Below are positions 14,800 to 54,839 of a stretch of 64,000 nucleotides of DNA, in pieces. Under the pieces are notes generated by a model that searched no databases, was not told the origin of the DNA, and saw only the letters and a program-made list of their open reading frames with translations. Each line of letters opens with the position of its first letter. The stretch's first letter is position 1. Origin of the DNA: Isoetes taiwanensis (Eukaryota > Streptophyta > Lycopodiopsida > Isoetales > Isoetaceae); contig JAJEKV010000057.1 in NCBI GenBank assembly GCA_021234155.1, positions 2,015,821 through 2,079,820 on the forward strand, in the 5' to 3' direction. Position numbers and translations under genes: made by a program.

Positions 14800-16026
14800 T
14801 CAATACCGTCCCGTAGGACACAAATGAGTCCGTGCATCCATAACCTCCTGGAGGTATGACCCCAACAAACCCACTGATGCCGTAGCCAATAACTGATGCA
14901 ACGGCTGGCCAGGCACTATTAATCGAACATATCGCTCTCGGATATGGGCAAATGCTGGGCAGACCTGGAGGGCATGACATTCATCCTCAATGGGCCTGGC
15001 GGTGGCAACACCGCAAAGCCTTTGCTCGCGTTTCCGAGCCCAACGCCTCGCTTTCAATGCAGAGGCGATGTGCACCGCGCGAATGGAAGCTATAAGTCCG
15101 CTGGCTTCTTCATGGGCACCGTGTACAAAAGTATGGTGTGGGCCGCTTGTGAGCCTAGGATTGACTTGTGGCGATAGTGTGCCGCTTAATGTGTGTCGAA
15201 AGCATCGCATCCCGAGCTTCGCGAAGGAAAGTAGCATCTAGGTACAAATTTTAAGTGCCTTGCAATCTTTCTTTGTCCCGACTGACGCACTGCTTTGTCG
15301 CGACACCCCGCCGTGAGAACCATTGAGCTTGCTTGTCTTTCTTTCCAGGATTTCAGCGTTGGGGACCCATCACCGCGTGGCCAAAGCAAGGTGGGGCAAG
15401 CGTGTATCAGCCATAGCGACCACCTTTTGGAATTAAACGATATGGCGTTCCAATGTAGCCCGTTGAAGGGGTAGAAAGCCTGTCTCCTGGAGTAGGATCT
15501 GGTATGGAACTGTGGACCTCACCCCCAGGGCCCGTGCCAAGAAGGCCTTCTCGCGACCGCCGAGGTCATTCAGTGTGTTGAGGGATATCAGGGGACCCCC
15601 ACACTTCGGCCCCCATACAAAAGGACCGACTCGACCAAGGCCCAAACAAGTGTGATTGGTGGCCCCGTGCATACAACTCGCCTTTGTGGCTATTGTACGC
15701 ATGGCATATAGTGCTTTCCAACCCGGCGCGGACCCGAACCTGATGGCAGCATCCCAATGGGTGGTAGTTGAGAACTCGATCCCCAAGTACTTGTAGGTCG
15801 GAGCCACCTCTACCTCTTGTCCCTGGTAAGTGAATGAGGGAAGCCTTGGCTGACGGGATGATGAAACTAGCAGCGCCCTAGTTTTGGCCAAGTTAAGTCG
15901 CATGCCAGTGAATTGGCAAAAAGTGTCAAGAGCATCCAGGTGACGTTGCATGTCCTCTGGAGTATAGGCTAGGAGGTTGACATCGTCAGCATATATGAGT
16001 TGCCGGATTGAGAAAATGGTGCACAC
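14800..16026 (-). pseudogene. LINE reverse transcriptase and C-terminal zinc region, degenerate
   Basis: The frame 16026-15433 starts inside RT with the catalytic box IYADD at about 15990, followed by LTGMRLNLAKT-type thumb wording (FTGMRLNLAKTRALLVSS) and YKYLGIEF. A second frame, 15237-14800, contains a Cys/His-type segment (ARPIEDECHALQVCPAF) like the zinc-binding module at the C terminus of plant LINE ORF2. An overlapping frame and a break around 15240-15430 show frameshifts. Catalysis in an intact element would be RNA-templated DNA synthesis at the nicked target. This copy lacks the upstream palm and fingers. Confidence 0.88.
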
Positions 16027-16030
16027 TCTT

Positions 16031-19389: not shown

Positions 19390-20393
19390 ATTGCCCAACA
19401 AGATCAAAATCTCTAACGTTCCTCCATGGCAAAGATCCGTGGTGAATAGTCCCATTTAGGTCATTGGAAGACATATCAACCTTTAGAAGCTTCTTTGTTT
19501 CTTCCTAGGTTTGCTTGGGAATAGGCCCCGTGAGATTATTAGCCCACATAAACAATACCGCAGATTAGGTGGGTCTCCAAAATACTTCGGGGAATCTTGC
19601 CATGCGGTTGGTTCTGAAAAACTTACTAGCTCCGGTGATGCAACGCATTAAAAAGTATTGTGCCACCGAGCTGATTATTAGAAAGATCCAAGGATTTGAG
19701 GTTTGTCAATAGCCCCCATTCTTCGGGAATAATGCCCACCAGAGAATTAATCTGCAGAAAAGAGCTAATCCAATTTCTTGAGATTCCCGGTTCGGTTGGA
19801 ATCGTGCCATTGAGGGTACAAGAAGAGAGGTCTAATCGTCGATTCGATAATCTGCCAAACTCCGGTGGAATCCCTCCTGAATACATGTTGTAGTAACCCA
19901 GATACAAATATTGGAGCTGAGAAAGGTTGCCAAGCTCCGGAGGTATCCTTCCTGATAAAGAGTTGCCTGCAAGAGCCATATATTTGAGATGCTTCATTTC
20001 TCCATATTCTGGAGGAATGGGTCCTTCGAAATAGCTCCCACCCAGATGAAGATGTTTCAGATTTTGAAGCTTCTCCAACTTCGGTGGCAGAGGACCCGAG
20101 AAATTATTGTTGTATGCATCAAGATTTTCCAGCCGCCCCTGTAATCTTGCCGCATTAATATGGACAGATCGCCCCTGTTTTCGCCCCTGTTTTGACCTAC
20201 GAGGCCCAAAAACACAGAGATTAGAACTCTTTTGGCTCTGTTTCATGCAAGGCCCGTTCCAGCGAGAAGGAAGAACGCCCCTGTTTTCGGCCATAGCCAT
20301 GCTGCCTGATCTGTAGAAGCAAAAATAAAACAAGAACAAGAAAAGAAGGAAACCCCAGCCGGAGCAAGCCGCCATAGCCGAAAAACCTTCCAC
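19390..20393 (-). pseudogene. Captured CLAVATA1/BAM-type LRR receptor fragment with signal-peptide-like N terminus
   Basis: The minus-strand frame 20393-19626 (255 codons) starts with a hydrophobic leader (residues ~8-28, rich in Phe and Leu) like a signal peptide. About 45 residues of non-LRR sequence follow. From residue ~88 there are about seven plant-type LRRs (NNFSGPLPP..., LHLGGSYFEGPIPPEYG). The block YNMYSGGIPPEFG is characteristic of the CLV1/BAM/PXY receptor-kinase class (LRR-XI). Further LRR wording continues in broken frames to about 19390 (NNLTGPIPK, SSNDLNGTI). There is no transmembrane or kinase domain. In the parent gene the ectodomain binds CLE-type peptides. Here it sits inside a TIR transposon, so it is a gene fragment, possibly a chimeric transcript. 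Whether it is expressed cannot be told. Confidence 0.85.
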
Positions 20394-20439
20394 AAGAACA
20401 GTACGTCAAAAAATTGAATTTTTAGTGAGATATTCCAGA

Positions 20440-20936: not shown

Positions 20937-21869
20937 ATCCCAAAGTTTCCAACGAAAATTTTTTGGGGCTTTTAAACATGATCAGGTAGCATTTTTTTTT
21001 TCTCCTGTATTTTGTGCTGTGTTGCAAAAGGAGCCAATGATGTAACTTATTTGGAATTACCGGCTGAAGAATTTTCTAATGCTGTGACCTTGCTGCAGAC
21101 TGAGGCTTTAAAATGTTAGTGGTCCTTCGTTGTTAATTTTTACCTTGTTTGCTTGATTCTAGTACGTTTTGTTTTGTCTTGTTTGGCCTTACAATTCTTC
21201 TTAGATGCTCGGCCAGTGATAATACTTGTTTTGGAATTACTAGCTGAATATGAATGCGGTCTTATTGCTGCAAACTGAGGTCTAGTTGTTGGTACTGGAT
21301 TCGCATGTATGTAATATATAGCCTATGATGCACAAATATTTCTACCTGACATATGAAACTAGTGATTCGATACTGTTGCTGAGGCTTATTATTCTCGAGT
21401 TTTAGATACTGGGCTTATTTATTGCTGGTAATTGTACCACTGTATTTTTTCTGTGGTCAACCTTATGCATCTTGTTTAATGAACTGGCGTTTTGCATTTG
21501 CTGGGATCTGTGTTTTCTTGAACGGGCTTCCTAAGAACTTGTCTGGGGTGTGATCAACCTAGTAAAATAACCCGGCAGTGTTGAAGTTTCAGATTGGAAT
21601 GGCAAGATCTAAAATGTTTACTAGATGCGATTATTCTTGTAATGGTGGGCCTAAACTTGTCTCCTCTCTTGGAAATGTCAATTTTGATTAGCAACTTCTG
21701 CAAACCAAGCATCCCGTTAAACAACCAAGCCACACATATTCCCATAAGCAAGCCAAAGCAATCTCACATATTCCCATCAATTTCACATATCTTACATAAA
21801 GCAATCTGGAAATGGAAATTGGAGAATGAAAATTGTTGGAATCTTATTTTTATAGTTACGGGACTCCCT
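20937..21869. other. Unassigned stretch, no gene seen
   Basis: No recognisable coding content. The TTTGGAATTAC / TGCTGAGGCT wording repeats loosely at 21050 and 21230, suggesting old internal duplication. The short frame at 21594-21893 does not resemble any known protein. Confidence 0.4.
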
Positions 21870-22054
21870 TACAGGTTGTATATTAGAGAATGAGAAATGT
21901 TGGAATTTTATTTTCATGGTTATGTATATTAGAGAATGAGAAATGTTGGAATTTTATTTTCATGGTTATAAGACTCCCTTACAGGTTCATGATCATATTG
22001 TATATTGGAGAATGAGAAATGTTGAAATCTTATTTTCATAGTCATAAGACTCTT
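21870..22054 (+). repeat. Short tandem duplications (~50 bp unit, three copies)
   Basis: The phrase TATTAGAGAATGAGAAATGT followed by a TTTTATTTTCAT-like block occurs three times in a row, the last copy carrying ACTCCCTTACAGGTTCATGATCAT-like sequence. The TRIM insertion at 22055 sits at the end of this array; the interrupted sequence resumes at 22609 (TTGAGGTTTCATGATC). Confidence 0.75.
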
Positions 22055-22237
22055 TGTTGGAATGCTCGAGTATGTGTAATGGGCACACATGAAGAATGAC
22101 TCAATGGAAGAGTGTCGAAAGCCCATCAAAGGGCTGGTAGCTCAGTGGTAGAGTACTTGGCTTGCAAGCAAGAGGTCCTGGGTTCGATCCCCATCCCCAG
22201 CCTGTCCACCCAATCATAGAAAGCTCATTTCTCAACA
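22055..22237 (+). repeat. TRIM 5' LTR (183 bp)
   Basis: TG...CA boundaries, followed immediately by the PBS. The tRNA-like segment occupies LTR positions 77-154 and carries a 6-nt duplication in the T arm. Confidence 0.92.
22131..22208 (+). tRNA. tRNA-Ala(UGC)-like sequence in the TRIM 5' LTR (T arm disrupted)
   Basis: Same sequence as the 3' LTR copy except for a 6-nt insertion (CCATCC/CCCCAT duplication) in the 3' strand of the T stem. The internal Pol III A box (TAGCTCAGTGG) and B box (GGTTCGATCCC) are intact. Folding into a cloverleaf would be impaired, so this copy is a pseudo-tRNA that may still bind TFIIIC. Confidence 0.6.
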
Positions 22238-22249
22238 TGGTATCAGAGC
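22238..22249 (+). promoter_or_regulatory. TRIM primer-binding site (initiator tRNA-Met)
   Basis: TGGTATCAGAGC, complementary to the 3' end of plant initiator tRNA-Met, directly abutting the 5' LTR. Confidence 0.93.
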
Positions 22250-22420
22250 CATGGTCCCAAGTAAAGGGTGCTTAACCGCACCGGGATAGTCCCCAGTGGT
22301 GTAGGGGTGAGAATGGGCAAATCTTGGCCAGTAGAAAGCCCAACTCCCGCAGTGGTGGAGTTGCCCGAGGAGGGGAGCATGTGGATTGTGGTGAAGGCTG
22401 GAATGGATTGGTGTGCCCAT

Positions 22421-22430
22421 TAAGGGGGGA
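22421..22430 (+). promoter_or_regulatory. TRIM polypurine tract
   Basis: TAAGGGGGGA directly before the 3' LTR; it would prime plus-strand DNA synthesis. Confidence 0.88.
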
Positions 22431-22608
22431 TGTTGGAATGCTGGAGTATGTGTAATGGGCACACAATGAAGAATGACTCAGTGGAAGAGTGTCGAAAGCC
22501 CATCAAAGGGCTGGTAGCTCAGTGGTAGAGTACTTGGCTTGCAAGCAAGAGGTCCTGGGTTCGATCCCCAGCCTGTCCACCCAATCATAGAAAGCTCATT
22601 TCTCAACA
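22431..22608 (+). repeat. TRIM 3' LTR (178 bp)
   Basis: TG...CA boundaries, same content as the 5' LTR, followed by CTCTC, the right-hand target duplication. Holds the intact tRNA-Ala-like sequence at 22508-22579. Confidence 0.92.
22508..22579 (+). tRNA. tRNA-Ala(UGC)-like gene inside the TRIM 3' LTR
   Basis: The 72 nt fold as a cloverleaf: acceptor GGGCTGG/CCTGTCC, D arm GCTC-AGTGGTA-GAGT, anticodon loop CTTGCAA with anticodon TGC, T arm CTGGG-TTCGATC-CCCAG, then discriminator A. Position 3-70 is a G-U pair, the main identity element of alanine tRNAs, in agreement with the UGC anticodon and A73. Two mismatches are seen (5-68 T:T and 31-39 G:G), so charging is uncertain. A box and B box are canonical. 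Because it lies inside an LTR it exists in duplicate (22131-22208) and would be copied with every transposition. Confidence 0.72.
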
Positions 22609-22764
22609 CTCTCTTGAGGTTTCATGATCATATTATATATTGCAATGCCACTTTTGTTGAGGATCACAATCGAATTTACCTGCATGGCATATCACAATCG
22701 AATTTACCTGCATGGCATATCTCTCCTGGTGTGACTCACTTTTGCATTGCAGTTGATCTGTCAG

Positions 22765-22970
22765 TTTAATAGCTCTCGCTATTTGTGCGTGAAACAATGT
22801 GCATTTGCGTTTAAACCCACAATCAAAAGACTTCGTTCAAAAGATCTGGCTCAATTTTGGCTTTGTGTTTAATAGCTCTCGCTATTTGTGCGTGAAACAA
22901 TGTGCATTTGCGTTTAAACCCACAATCAAAAGACTTCGTTCAAAAGATCTGGCTCAATTTTGGCTTTGTG
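22765..22970 (+). repeat. Perfect-looking 103-bp tandem duplication
   Basis: 22765-22867 and 22868-22970 both begin TTTAATAGCTCTCGCTATTT and run to GGCTTTGTG. No gene is recognised in the unit. Confidence 0.9.
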
Positions 22971-24256: not shown

Positions 24257-24742
24257 CAAGACAGAGCTTGAAATTGTGCAGACTTAAGTTGTCTTGTTTA
24301 AATCAAACACTTACCCTAATGGTCAAGTTGAACCTAAGGGAAATGTAAATATATCAATGGTTAATGGTTGGCATTATATTTTGGAGCCAACCGAACATTC
24401 AAATAGTAACATATACAGGTGGCCCGGATCTGACTGCTACACCGTCGAAGCTCGGTAATTAAATGCGGTGCTATGCAATGTGAAGCACATTGTACTTTGG
24501 ATGTGATCGGCAGGGAGCCTAATGATCTAATACATCAATTAGATCAGTTCGAGGTTACATGAAATTGCTACAGTGTTTTTATCAGTCCATATGAACAATA
24601 AAGTCAATATAAGTTTATCATCATTGAAATATGGTTGTTTTTGTTGGACTTATATATGAAGAAGAATGTTTCTAATGATTCAGAATTGTCTAGATTGCAA
24701 ATTGATCTAGTCAAACTTTGAGTGAGCACATGACAACATTCT

Positions 24743-24890
24743 TATTACTGCCACGATTTTTCCCTCGAAAATCCTTCGGGGCGGGGGTTTTTTAACCCGG
24801 ACAGTAATAAGTTTGCTGCGCTCCTTATGGGTCCCATAGGCCGATTGGCCTCAGTGGGCGATAAAAAAATCATTCTCATTCTCATTGTGT
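24743..24890 (+). mobile_element. LINE/SINE 3' segment with conserved hairpin (copy 2) and ATTCTC tail
   Basis: 24743-24809 is a 67-nt hairpin motif with the same outer stem as the LINE copy at 14697-14763 (TATTACTG/CAGTAATA), but with a TTCG tetraloop in the core. It is followed by TTTGCTGCGCTCC, GGGTCCCATAGGCCGATTGG and CCTCAGTGGGCGATAAAA, the shared 3' end. A short ATTCTC microsatellite closes it. The 5' portion is not recognisable. It lies within or next to the presumed copia LTR. Confidence 0.68.
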
Positions 24891-24955
24891 TAAATTGAAT
24901 AATTGCATAGATTATTATATATTAGTGGCTTGATTCTAACATTTGGTATCAGAGC
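24891..24955 (+). mobile_element. End of copia 5' LTR and its primer-binding site
   Basis: The sequence ends TTCTAACA at 24941, then TT and TGGTATCAGAGC (24944-24955), a PBS for initiator tRNA-Met. CCATG follows. The gag sequence of the same element resumes at 53452, because the large LTR element 24962-53451 inserted in the ATGTC immediately downstream. The LTR's left end is not defined; a TG start near 24644 (TGTTGGACTT) is one possibility. Confidence 0.7.
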
Positions 24956-24961
24956 CATGTC

Positions 24962-26487
24962 TGTGACGTTCCATCATAACATACGGTATGAATACGTATA
25001 TTATACTGACACGTCACTAGTACATGTCGACTCAGACGACATGTACACGGCGATCGTAAAGGGTAGTACCCTAGGGTACGACCTTGTGAACCATTATATT
25101 GCACATGTTAAGGCCACATATGAATATAATATCTTTTGCCATGTGGCAATAGCCCATTGACCAAAAGTGTCCAGCCCTAAAATTCGTGGGGATAAAGGGG
25201 CATAAACCCTAAAAGGGAAACCCTTTCGGTTTCCAGCCCCTATAGGTCGGATTGGAGTAGCATTGGACGCCATTTCGCCTGAAGAGTAGCAGAGGAATCG
25301 GAATTCCTAGGTTGCAGCTCGATCCAAGACCAGCAGTCTCGAAATCCAGCGGCATGGACGCTTTCAGAGAAGTGGGAGCCAGCCAAGAAGCGGGTTAGTG
25401 GTTGATCCGATAGTTAGATCCGAGTTTTCAGCCCTCATTCCATAGGATTAATATCCATTCTTAGCTATAGGCGACCCCTACAGCCTAAGAATGATAAACA
25501 CTAACAAAGGAACCTAACCATGTATGATTAGGTAGATTAGAATAGATGTATTCTATTATTTCAGTTCTGTTGTGTTGATGTTTTGACATTCTATGCGCCA
25601 CTCTTGTGTATTGGGAAGGGGGGTAGAGACCCAGAGCCCAAGTAGATGGATGATCCTAGTTTTAGCCCATTAATTCCCAATTAATGCGGCCTGTGCATAA
25701 GAGCCCGCCTGGCTGTGGGTGGCGGAGCTAGACCGGCTGACAAGGAAGGGCTTGTCTGATTACAGTTGATCCCTCTGGTGCGTAGCGACGGCCGGGGAAC
25801 ATTGTGGGCTAGGCCTAATACCCTGGCACTGCGTGAGGGCAGGGTATGGGCTCGACACCTCTTGGATCTTCTAGGGGTTCAAGTCGTATACGAGCAGTGG
25901 CTCTCTAGCTCGCCTGTGATTGCATGAACCTTCTGGAGGGGAGTGATCTCCTCCTGCCTCATCGGGAGCTAGGGAGATGCAACCCAGTAATAGCCCCCTT
26001 GGCTATGAACCCGGCAGGCTACGGTCAAGCTCCAATACTTTTCAGCCTATCTGCAAAGTATGCACATGAGGGGCGGATGGAGTGGACTTACCCAACGGCC
26101 ATGTTCCTATGCCAGCCATTGTTATCCGGAGACCCAAGCCGTCAGTCTTTCCCCATGAGTTTGAGCCTGGGTAGGATCTTCCCCATGTTATGTTGATGTA
26201 CTGATGTGTTGTTGCAGCTACTGTGATATGGTGGACCACCCTTCGAGGTGGGTATGTTATTGTTGATTGATGTCATGTGCTCATGTTTGCTTACGCTTTC
26301 GCAGCTAGGACGATCCCGAGGGAGACGGGATGAATGACACGTCCATTCTTCCCTGTCGGGCTCTTGGCCACCATCAAGGGCCCGATGTTAGGTGGACGGC
26401 CTCATGTCAGCGAGCAGATGCTGGTTTGAGGGATGATCTCCAGTTTGTATACGATCGGGGCATCGTATATGAGCTGGGGCCGTCACA
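24962..26487 (+). repeat. 5' LTR of the large non-autonomous element (1526 bp)
   Basis: Begins TGTGACGTTCC and ends CCGTCACA, with inverted terminal TGTGACG/CGTCACA. It is nearly identical to the 3' LTR. Differences include a ~10-bp segment (GGTGATGCGTCAT region near 52790) and a 28-bp segment (near 53057) present only in the 3' LTR. Internal blocks such as GGGGTAGAGACC and GCCCGCCTGGCTGT also occur, diverged, in the LTR repeats at 6587-8608. Confidence 0.95.
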
Positions 26488-26488
26488 A

Positions 26489-26500
26489 TGGTATCAGAGC
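26489..26500 (+). promoter_or_regulatory. Primer-binding site of the large element
   Basis: TGGTATCAGAGC one base after the LTR end; complementary to the initiator tRNA-Met 3' end. Confidence 0.93.
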
Positions 26501-51887: not shown

Positions 51888-53451
51888 TGTGACATTCCAG
51901 CATAACATACGGTATGAATACGTATATTATACTGACACGTCACTAGTACATGTCGACTCAGACGACATGTACACGGCGATCGTAAAGGGTAGTACCCTAG
52001 GGTACGACCTTGTGAACCATTATATTGCACATGTTAAGGCCACATGTGAATATAATATCTTTTGCCATGTGGCAATAGCCCATTGACCAAAAGGGCCCAG
52101 CCCTAAAATTCGTGGGGATAAAAAGGCATAAACCCTAAAAGGGAAACCCTTTCGGTTTCCAGCCCCTATAGGTCAGATTGGAGCAGCATTGGACGCCATT
52201 TCGCCTGAAGAGTAGCAGAGGAATCGGAATTCCTAGGTTGCAGCTCGATCCAAGACCAGCAGTCTCGAAATCCAGCGGCATGGACGCTTTCAGAGGAGTG
52301 GGAGCCAGCCAAGAAGCGGGTTAGTGGTTGATCCGATAGTTAGATCCGAGTTTTCAGCCCTCATTCCATAGGATTAGTATCCATTCTTAGCTATAGACGA
52401 CCCCTACAGCCTAAGAATGATAAACACTAACAAAGGAACCTAACCATGTATGATTAGGTAGATTAGAATAGATGTATTCTATTATTTCAGTTCTGTTGTG
52501 TTGATGTTTTGACATTCTATGCGCCACTCTTGTGTATTGGGAAGGGGGGTAGAGACCCAGAGCCCAAGTAGATGGATGATCCTAGTTTTAGCCCATTATT
52601 TCCCAATTGATGCGGCCTGTGCATAAGAGCCCGCCTGGCTGTGGGTGGCGGAGCTAGACCGGCTGACAAGGAAGGGCTTGTCTGATCACAGTTGATCCCT
52701 CTGGTGCGTAGCGACGGCCGGGGAACATTGTGGGCTAGGCTTAATACCCTGGCACTGCATGAGGGCAGGGTATGGGCTCGACACCTCTTGGGTGATGCGT
52801 CATCTTCTAGGGGTTCAAGTCGTATATGAGCAGTGGCTCTCTAGCTCGCCTGTGATTGGCATGAACCTTCTGGAGGGGAGTGATCTCCTCCTGCCTCATC
52901 GGAAGCTGGGGAGATGCAACCCAGTAATAGCCCCCTTGGCTATGAACCCGGCAGGTTACGGTCAGGCTCCAATACTTTTCAGCCTATCTGCAAAGTATGC
53001 ACAGGAGGGGCGGATGGAGTGGACTACCCAACGGCCATGTTCCTATGCCAGCCAAATCCATTTGCCATGAATTTTGTCTGCATTGTTATCCGGAGACCCA
53101 AGCCGTCAGTCTTTCCCCATGAGTCTGAGCCTGGGTAGGATCTTCCCCATGTTATGTTGATGTACTGATGTGTTGTTGCAGCTACTGTGATATGGTGGAC
53201 CACCCTTCGAGGTGGGTATGTTATTGTTGATTGATGTCATGTGCTCATGTTTGCTTACGCTTTCGCAGCTAGGACGATCCCGAGGGAGACGGGATGAATG
53301 ACACGTCCATTCTTCCCCGTCGGGCTCTTGGCCACCATCAAGGGCCCGATGTTAGGTGGACGACCTCATGTCAGCGAGCAGATGCTGGTTTGAGGGATGA
53401 TCTCCAGTTTGTATACGATCGGGGCATCGTATATGTGTTGGGGCCGTCACA
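51888..53451 (+). repeat. 3' LTR of the large non-autonomous element (1564 bp)
   Basis: Begins TGTGACATTCC and ends CCGTCACA, then ATGTC, the right target duplication. It matches the 5' LTR closely. The high identity means the insertion is young relative to the decayed chromovirus at the left of the window. Confidence 0.95.
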
Positions 53452-54839
53452 ATGTCCAGAGATTTGATGCAAGATTGTTAAGCTCAGTAGAGGTATACAA
53501 AGGTGGTTCAGGCTTCCAAGTTTGGAAGGATGCCATAAAGCACATCTTAGAGGTGGAAGATGTTTGGGATCTTGTTAACCCCTCTGGAGAATTTGATGGT
53601 CAAGATAGTTCTGCTACAAGTGCAAATGTAAGAGTTGAAACAGGAGGTAACTCTAATACTAATATTGCAGCTATAAGTACAGGAGATGCAAGTTCAGGAC
53701 AAACCTCTGCCACTGTAGCTGCTCGAGTTGAACAAGGAAGGAGTCTGTTTGCAAGTTCAAAGGAGGCACAAGGTATTATTACCTCAAAGGTCAGTCCAAC
53801 TATAAGACAGAAATTGAGAAACATGACTGCGAAAGAAATGAGAAGTTACTTGTTAAAACATTATGACGAGAAAACATCCTCTCAGATAGATCTTCTTGAA
53901 AGGGAATTGAGAAAGCTAAAACTAAAAGATGAAGATGATGTTTCAGAGTTATTTAACAATTTTGACAATCTTGTGGCAGACTTAAGTGGGGCAGGTGTGA
54001 ACTTAACTGAGAGATATCAGGTACTTGCCATAGCCAGAGCTGTTTCTGATAATGAGAACCTCTCACTATTGCTAAATCTCGAGAGGATGCTGAAGGAATT
54101 TTGAGAACTGAAATTGAGCAAAAAAGGGTAATGAGAGAAGATGAGGATGAATCAGCTGAAATACTCTATACAGGAAGAAAAGGGAAGGGTAAGACTGACA
54201 AGGGCACATGTTTTTATTGCCATGAGCAAGGGCATTTTAAAAACAACTGTCCTAAACTAAATAAAGAATTTAATTGCTACACATGTGGTGGAAGGGGGCA
54301 TTTAGCAGCAAAGTGTCCAACACTAAAGGATTTCTCAAAGGGGTCGAGTGGCAGATCTACAGGAGCATATTTGGCCAAAGAACGAGTGAATGAAAAGGAA
54401 GAAACTGAGGAGGAAGATGAGGTATCTAGAATTTGTGCGTTCATTGATAAATAAAAAATTAATAAGTCCCGTGCTCTTGTAGTTGACAGTGGAGCTGAAA
54501 GATCATTAGTTCACACCACTGAAAATGCTAGATCAACTCACTCAAGGAGTGTTCAAGTTGGAAATGGGGCTTTACAAATGATTGACAAATAATTGAAGGC
54601 AAAGGGTTACTGCAGTTGTTTGATTTGAAGGAAAATGTAATTGACATTGAGAATGTACTTTATGTACCAACTCTTGTCAAAAATCTCATCTCAGTGAGTC
54701 AACTAGTTGATTTAGGTTATAAAGTCACTTTTGACTCTGATGCATGTAACATTTCAGTTGGAAATGAAATTAAGTTTCTTGCCAAAAGGATTAGAAACCT
54801 TTTTCAGTTGGATGATGTGGTTGTTGACAGTATAAATTG
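53452..54839 (+). pseudogene. gag: Ty1/copia gag, protease and pre-integrase fragment
   Basis: Continuation of the element whose PBS is at 24944. The gag domain (53457-54100) includes YKGGSGFQVWKDAI and LLKHYDEKTSSQIDLLEREL, the UBN2-type copia gag. Two CCHC knuckles follow (CFYCHEQGHFKNNC and CYTCGGRGHLAAKC, 54210-54315). The protease motif VVDSGAERSLV lies near 54485, and a GAG-pre-integrase-like segment (IENVLYVPTLVKNLISVSQL) runs to about 54720. The likely start codon is the ATG of the ATGTC target site, interrupted by the 28-kb insertion. Frameshifts are also present near 53470 and 54080 with stops at 54452 and 54590. The sequence is cut off at 54839, with integrase and RT absent. Confidence 0.87.

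Follow-up and report, generated by a model that had tools for sequence, protein, structure and literature searches.

A 554-bp TRIM retrotransposon whose two LTRs each contain a sequence resembling a tRNA raises the question of whether that sequence is a working gene, a promoter or a passenger. The element lies at 22055–22608 of the window, by which we mean the whole 64,000-nt stretch of Isoetes taiwanensis DNA analysed here. The earlier note had described it as a TRIM with LTRs, a PBS for initiator tRNA, a PPT and a target duplication. Alignment and relatives in the genome bear this anatomy out, confirming that the element is real and its coordinates exact; the PBS is read as the iMet type, and the duplication agrees at four of five bases. 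Its parts are as follows.

22050–22054, no strand: left target site duplication, CTCTT (flank comparison)
22055–22237, plus strand: 5′ LTR, 183 bp, TGTTG...CAACA (LTR–LTR alignment; LTR recurs in full elements elsewhere in the genome)
22131–22208, plus strand: tRNA-Ala-like sequence of the 5′ LTR (Rfam, 43.6 bits, E = 5.8e-6 over 22131–22199)
22238–22251, plus strand: PBS, TGGTATCAGAGCCA (sequence; also kept in relatives)
22238–22430, plus strand: internal region, 193 bp
22422–22430, plus strand: PPT, AAGGGGGGA, directly abutting the 3′ LTR (small variation among relatives)
22431–22608, plus strand: 3′ LTR, 178 bp (LTR–LTR alignment; full elements)
22508–22579, plus strand: tRNA-Ala(TGC)-like sequence of the 3′ LTR (Rfam, 63.6 bits, E = 1.8e-11; ARAGORN; pair table)
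22609–22613, no strand: right target site duplication, CTCTC (flank comparison)
22652–22655, plus strand: first TTTT downstream of the element (T-run scan)

Across 177 aligned bases the two LTRs show two substitutions, and they are further set apart by indels of 1 bp and 6 bp. The PBS (TGGTATCAGAGC) begins at 22238, immediately after the 5′ LTR, and as TGGTATCAGAGCCA it is presumably complementary to the 3′ end of initiator tRNA-Met (tRNA-iMet). No open reading frame of 150 or more residues is present in the 554 bp. The TRIM interrupts a tandem repeat, and its flanks, when joined by script, align across the junction to an intact upstream unit that serves as the empty site. This alignment supports both the ends of the element and the 5-bp duplication, in which CTCTT and CTCTC differ by one mismatch. 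Directly downstream of the TRIM lie two perfect tandem duplications, of 103 bp (22764–22969) and 28 bp (22663–22718). The window contains no second copy of the TRIM.

The TRIM belongs to a multi-copy family. A search of its own genome (1,658,258,908 bases) with the whole element gave at least 46 matches, with 40 of 378 candidates scored. From 50 loci we took 22 distinct full elements, leaving out those with truncated LTRs or interiors. Perfect 5-bp target duplications flank 18 of the 22. The remaining four are the copy at 22055–22608, L004 and L013, which adjoin further family pieces in tandem arrays, and L010, whose match begins at LTR base 3. Seven of the full elements show no difference between their LTRs, indicating recent movement of the family. 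Stricter extraction over all 80 loci again yielded 22 elements (18 with perfect duplications, seven with identical LTRs and none containing TTTT), with a median LTR–LTR divergence of 1.7% and a maximum of 10.7%. Under a strict rule the 80 loci gave four solo LTRs, one of them with a perfect duplication, a number too small to build on. Tandem arrays or extra LTR or interior pieces were observed beside family copies at L004, L012, L013 and L041.

The signals at the ends of the interior are well kept among these relatives. Nineteen of the 22 full elements match the first 12 bases of the PBS exactly (in L005 with an offset of one base), and L015, L035 and L037 carry changes there. We also observed a perfect 12-nt inverted repeat between 22411–22422, at the end of the interior, and 22453–22464 in the LTR, the latter arm being present at 22077–22088 as well. 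Paired, the arms would form a hairpin whose loop holds the PPT and the beginning of the LTR; 19 of the 22 full elements have both arms without a change.

Rfam identifies the same tRNA-derived sequence in both LTRs, where it makes up about 40% of the LTR length. At gathering thresholds these two are its only matches in the 64-kb window. With E values up to 1, the region 21800–22900 gave no 5S rRNA match, and within the element Rfam reported tRNA alone. The canonical A and B boxes that the earlier note had pointed out are intact by consensus patterns in both LTRs, at 22138 and 22181 in the 5′ LTR and at 22515 and 22558 in the 3′ LTR. The same consensus patterns pick out no other correctly spaced A–B pair on either strand of the window.

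The two copies differ in how well they resemble a tRNA. With default settings ARAGORN calls tRNA-Ala(tgc) in the 3′ LTR only; the 5′ copy is missed because a 6-bp tandem duplication (ATCCCC) sits in its T arm and breaks it, and a relaxed threshold recovers this copy with a changed acceptor stem. The earlier note had read the 3′ copy as a 72-nt cloverleaf with anticodon TGC. Rfam and ARAGORN both call it a tRNA and the anticodon is indeed TGC, but two of the 21 cloverleaf pairs, 5–67 and 30–38, are broken, leaving 19 standard. The minimum-energy fold of the 3′ sequence is not a cloverleaf, and its stability is no better than that of shuffles (z = +0.83).

The earlier note had named family members lacking the tRNA as the observation that would turn the tRNA into a secondary insertion. 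We looked for such members with a pattern taken from the LTR's left portion, clear of the tRNA; it matches the genome exactly at 170 sites (0 for the reversed control). The first 30 sites in contig order were fetched, and some of these are paired LTRs of a single element. In 29 of the 30, Blast puts the tRNA at an identical offset, with at least 65 of its 72 bases in 26 sites and 61–63 in three. At the thirtieth, L079, the LTR match stops at base 91, which is 14 bases into the tRNA, as its sequence shows too, and the script scores no tRNA. The proposal therefore survives, and the tRNA is built into the family instead of being a chance insertion, because it holds the same place in sites chosen independently of it. 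The converse search, seeded with the tRNA and allowing up to three mismatches, found 281 genome sites (control, 0); of 30 fetched, 29 lie within recognisable family LTRs, and the other, L028, is followed by what appears by eye to be a degraded LTR end.

From these observations we propose that the element is a non-coding TRIM of the Helenus type (TRIMp3) that probably uses the tRNA-derived sequence of its LTRs as an internal Pol III promoter. TFIIIC would bind the A and B boxes of the 5′ LTR, and Pol III would initiate near the first base of the tRNA (~22131). Since the element contains no T-run, Pol III would be expected to read through the PBS, the interior, the PPT and the 3′ LTR, and to stop at a T-run in the flank, the first TTTT being at 22652; the resulting RNA would be ~520 nt long. 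The segment that runs from the first base of the tRNA to the end of the LTR (~107 nt), which is present at both ends, could then act as R-U5 for strand transfer. Initiator tRNA-Met would serve as primer at the PBS, with reverse transcriptase and integrase supplied in trans by an autonomous LTR element. The anatomy of the element, its 5-bp duplications, its recent movement and the integral place of the tRNA in the family are observed; its use of Pol III, the start and end points of the transcript and the helper are what we infer from sequence.

Features of the LTR beyond the boxes were compared across 70 LTRs (61 distinct) from 50 loci, each beginning no later than base 8 and reaching at least base 170, with shorter LTRs excluded. 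The presence of the tRNA is not argued from this set because 30 of the 50 loci were picked by the tRNA pattern. In 56 of the 61 distinct LTRs a CAA stands no more than 10 nt upstream of the tRNA; a study of plant tRNA genes, in which such a CAA is cited as a start-site motif, gives its frequency among angiosperm tRNA genes as ~36–45% (PMC11700998). TTTT is found in none of the 61 distinct LTRs, in none of the 22 full elements and nowhere in the 554 bp at 22055–22608. The same study reports poly(T) within 50 nt downstream of 67–73% of angiosperm tRNA genes (PMC11700998). We considered depletion of T-runs as evidence of selection and rejected it, as shuffles give no support: composition alone leads one to expect the absence, 74% of dinucleotide shuffles of the 554 bp also being free of TTTT. 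Stretches of 554 bp without TTTT account for only 5.5% of those in the window.

The most serious alternative is that the element is an ordinary TRIM transcribed by Pol II, its tRNA-like sequence being a captured passenger or serving as a TFIIIC insulator, in RNA folding or in packaging. In its favour, Pol III use is a prediction from sequence, and mean column divergence over the 61 LTRs is 3.2% in the tRNA part and 4.9% and 6.8% in the rest of the LTR, so that the tRNA is only slightly better conserved than its surroundings; divergence is 2.8% in the A box and 5.1% in the B box, the latter being no better kept than what surrounds it. Moreover, passages of a survey of plant TRIMs indicate that Cassandra alone among them had 5S rRNA sequence, from which it follows that a 5S-type promoter is unnecessary for a TRIM to spread (PMC4717578). 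Against transcription by Pol II stand the intact boxes of the tRNA in both LTRs, the presence of the tRNA in young copies, where it fills so large a share of the LTR, and the absence of any match to TATA[AT]A in the element. A scan of the element for AATAAA, ATTAAA and AATGAA gave a single match, in the 3′ LTR. Taken together, we regard the Pol II alternative as possible but rather unlikely.

A second alternative takes the resemblance to a tRNA at face value: the LTRs would carry a working tRNA-Ala(UGC) gene, and the family would enlarge the tRNA pool. All 61 distinct LTRs have the anticodon TGC, and 59 have G-U as their third acceptor pair, G3-U70 being the main identity element of alanine tRNAs. 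Default ARAGORN makes 39 calls in the 20 loci found with the whole element, all of them tRNA-Ala(tgc), with at least one in every locus. The rest of the molecule argues otherwise. Pair 5–67 is standard in one of the 61 distinct LTRs and pair 30–38 in none, so the cloverleaf is not intact across the family, and these stem defects probably predate its spread. The LTR has no TTTT, the fold is no better than shuffles, and the 5′ copy at 22131–22208 is broken. Among the other loci, default ARAGORN finds no tRNA in 6 of the 30 fetched with the LTR-left pattern (33 tRNA-Ala(tgc) in the remaining 24) and in 5 of the 30 fetched with the tRNA pattern (in the remaining 25, 33 tRNA-Ala(tgc) and three copies read as tRNA-Ala(ggc)); the locus sets overlap.

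A working gene is for these reasons quite improbable. The broken stem pairs, set beside TGC in 61 of 61 LTRs, make a Pol III promoter more likely than a working tRNA gene, and a promoter of this kind may have kept what Pol III requires and lost part of the fold. The earlier note had claimed a tRNA-Ala(UGC) gene in each LTR. An integral tRNA-Ala(UGC)-like sequence is there in both, but the word gene is doubtful because two stem pairs are broken family-wide and the LTR contains no TTTT.

That a tRNA gene or SINE landed by chance in a single copy is refuted by the fixed place of the tRNA in 29 of 30 LTR sites and by the end of the thirtieth inside it, and keeps next to no probability; the weak imperfect repeat on both sides of the tRNA (CCCATCA / CCCAATCA) that might favour it is not significant, being equalled by 10.8% of random pairs and at 1251 of 9127 window positions, and on the same ground we rejected the idea that an old duplication surrounding the tRNA betrays the capture of a SINE.

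Elements of this kind have a recent precedent. The earlier note knew of no established tRNA counterpart to the 5S-bearing TRIMs, a statement that is out of date: TRIMs of the same architecture were described in 2024 by Kojima under the name Helenus (PMC10886601). The 554-bp element shares with them TRIM size, a PBS and a PPT, a non-coding build (no open reading frame of 150 or more residues here) and many copies. Each of its LTRs likewise includes a tRNA-derived stretch bearing A and B boxes, a feature found family-wide here, and its target duplications are 5 bp long, the length seen in Helenus of plants and fungi (perfect in 18 of 22 elements here). Predicted tRNA genes also occur in Helenus LTRs; of the 137 genes predicted for tRNA-Ala-TGC in Puccinia triticina, 133 lie inside them (Table 2, PMC10886601). 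Selaginella is the only plant host listed, and Helenus-1_SMo of Selaginella moellendorffii, compared here by description only, has an LTR of 120 bp and an interior of 85 bp (178–183 and 193 bp in the present element). Kojima argues for several origins of Helenus and states that its transcription by Pol III was not validated (PMC10886601).

Other short elements resemble the present one in part. Cassandra is a TRIM whose LTRs likewise harbour the gene of a small RNA, and tandem arrays of LTRs and interiors occur in it as in the present family, but its RNA gene is 5S rRNA, for which our element has no Rfam match. Ajax is also a TRIM whose LTRs hold a small-RNA promoter of Pol III type, but that promoter is 5S-derived, and Ajax is reported from two nemerteans. 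tRNA-derived SINEs share the tRNA-derived internal promoter and the short, non-coding form, a likeness also drawn in Kojima's introduction (PMC10886601). Because our element has LTRs, a PBS, a PPT and 5-bp duplications, it moves by the LTR route, unlike SINEs.

The TRIM with tRNA in its LTRs is thus a kind known since 2024, and what is new is a young and common family in a second plant genus, Isoetes. From titles and the openings of abstracts in the open-licence PMC literature, we recognised no other plant report of a tRNA-bearing TRIM. Isoetes and Selaginella are both lycophytes, so a shared lineage is conceivable. A more far-reaching version of the Pol III proposal, in which a living Pol III-driven family belongs to a tRNA-LTR lineage that quillworts and Selaginella have had in common since they diverged and its RNA is also cut to a tRNA-Ala(UGC)-like RNA that enters the pool of tRNAs and their fragments, would be a long shot on the sequence comparisons made here. 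Exact patterns from the element had no matches in the viral_contigs or genome_contigs collections. Among phages and plasmids, Blast matches were confined to stretches within and next to the tRNA, no record containing 80% of the element; among the phage matches listed, 16 of 20 lie on annotated tRNA-Ala genes.

The family also bears on genome annotation. The worry raised in the earlier note, that some annotated tRNA-Ala genes are LTR passengers, is a fair one in view of the 39 ARAGORN calls in 20 loci: naive annotation would score many of the family's LTR tRNAs as genes. Counts of tRNA genes in such genomes may be inflated, and the present genome has 281 tRNA-seeded sites. A total of 8,975 tRNA genes is very many for a plant. 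This is the number that a passage on Isoetes sinensis gives from tRNAscan-SE (PMC10541799), and tRNA-bearing repeats are a possible source of it. Whether an LTR retrotransposon can be driven by a tRNA promoter is directly testable in I. taiwanensis, because there are many copies, some with identical LTRs, and the plant can be sampled for RNA.

The rest of the window contains further transposon and gene remnants. Pfam scans covered 65 of its 87 open reading frames of at least 90 residues. Ten of these gave transposon domains, leucine-rich repeats (LRRs) and two weak matches below the cut-off, and the other 55 gave RVT_1, zf-CCHC and RVP_2, in one frame each. A minus-strand frame at 15436–16029 encodes a reverse transcriptase fragment, of L1 type by eye, for which the protein collection held no relative at E values up to 0.001. 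Another minus-strand frame, at 19629–20405, resembles the LRR domain of plant receptor kinases. It has distant relatives only (the best is 54% identical across 61% of the query), plant receptor kinases rank top among solved structures, and it is perhaps a gene fragment or pseudogene. With this receptor-kinase-like sequence present, the window agrees with a land-plant origin.

A segment at 24642–24959 starts with TGTTGG and ends with AACA, and is followed by a PBS region (24944) identical to that of the TRIM over 16 bases; it has apparently been cut by a larger element. As a remnant LTR it was considered as a relative of the helper and rejected, its similarity to the TRIM LTR not exceeding chance. 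Two copies of a 1.57-kb repeat, at 24962–26490 and 51888–53454, are 95.7% identical and are probably the LTRs of one or more larger elements. A PBS at 26489 follows the first copy, and a copia-type gag frame, for which the protein search found no relatives, lies at 53394–54104.
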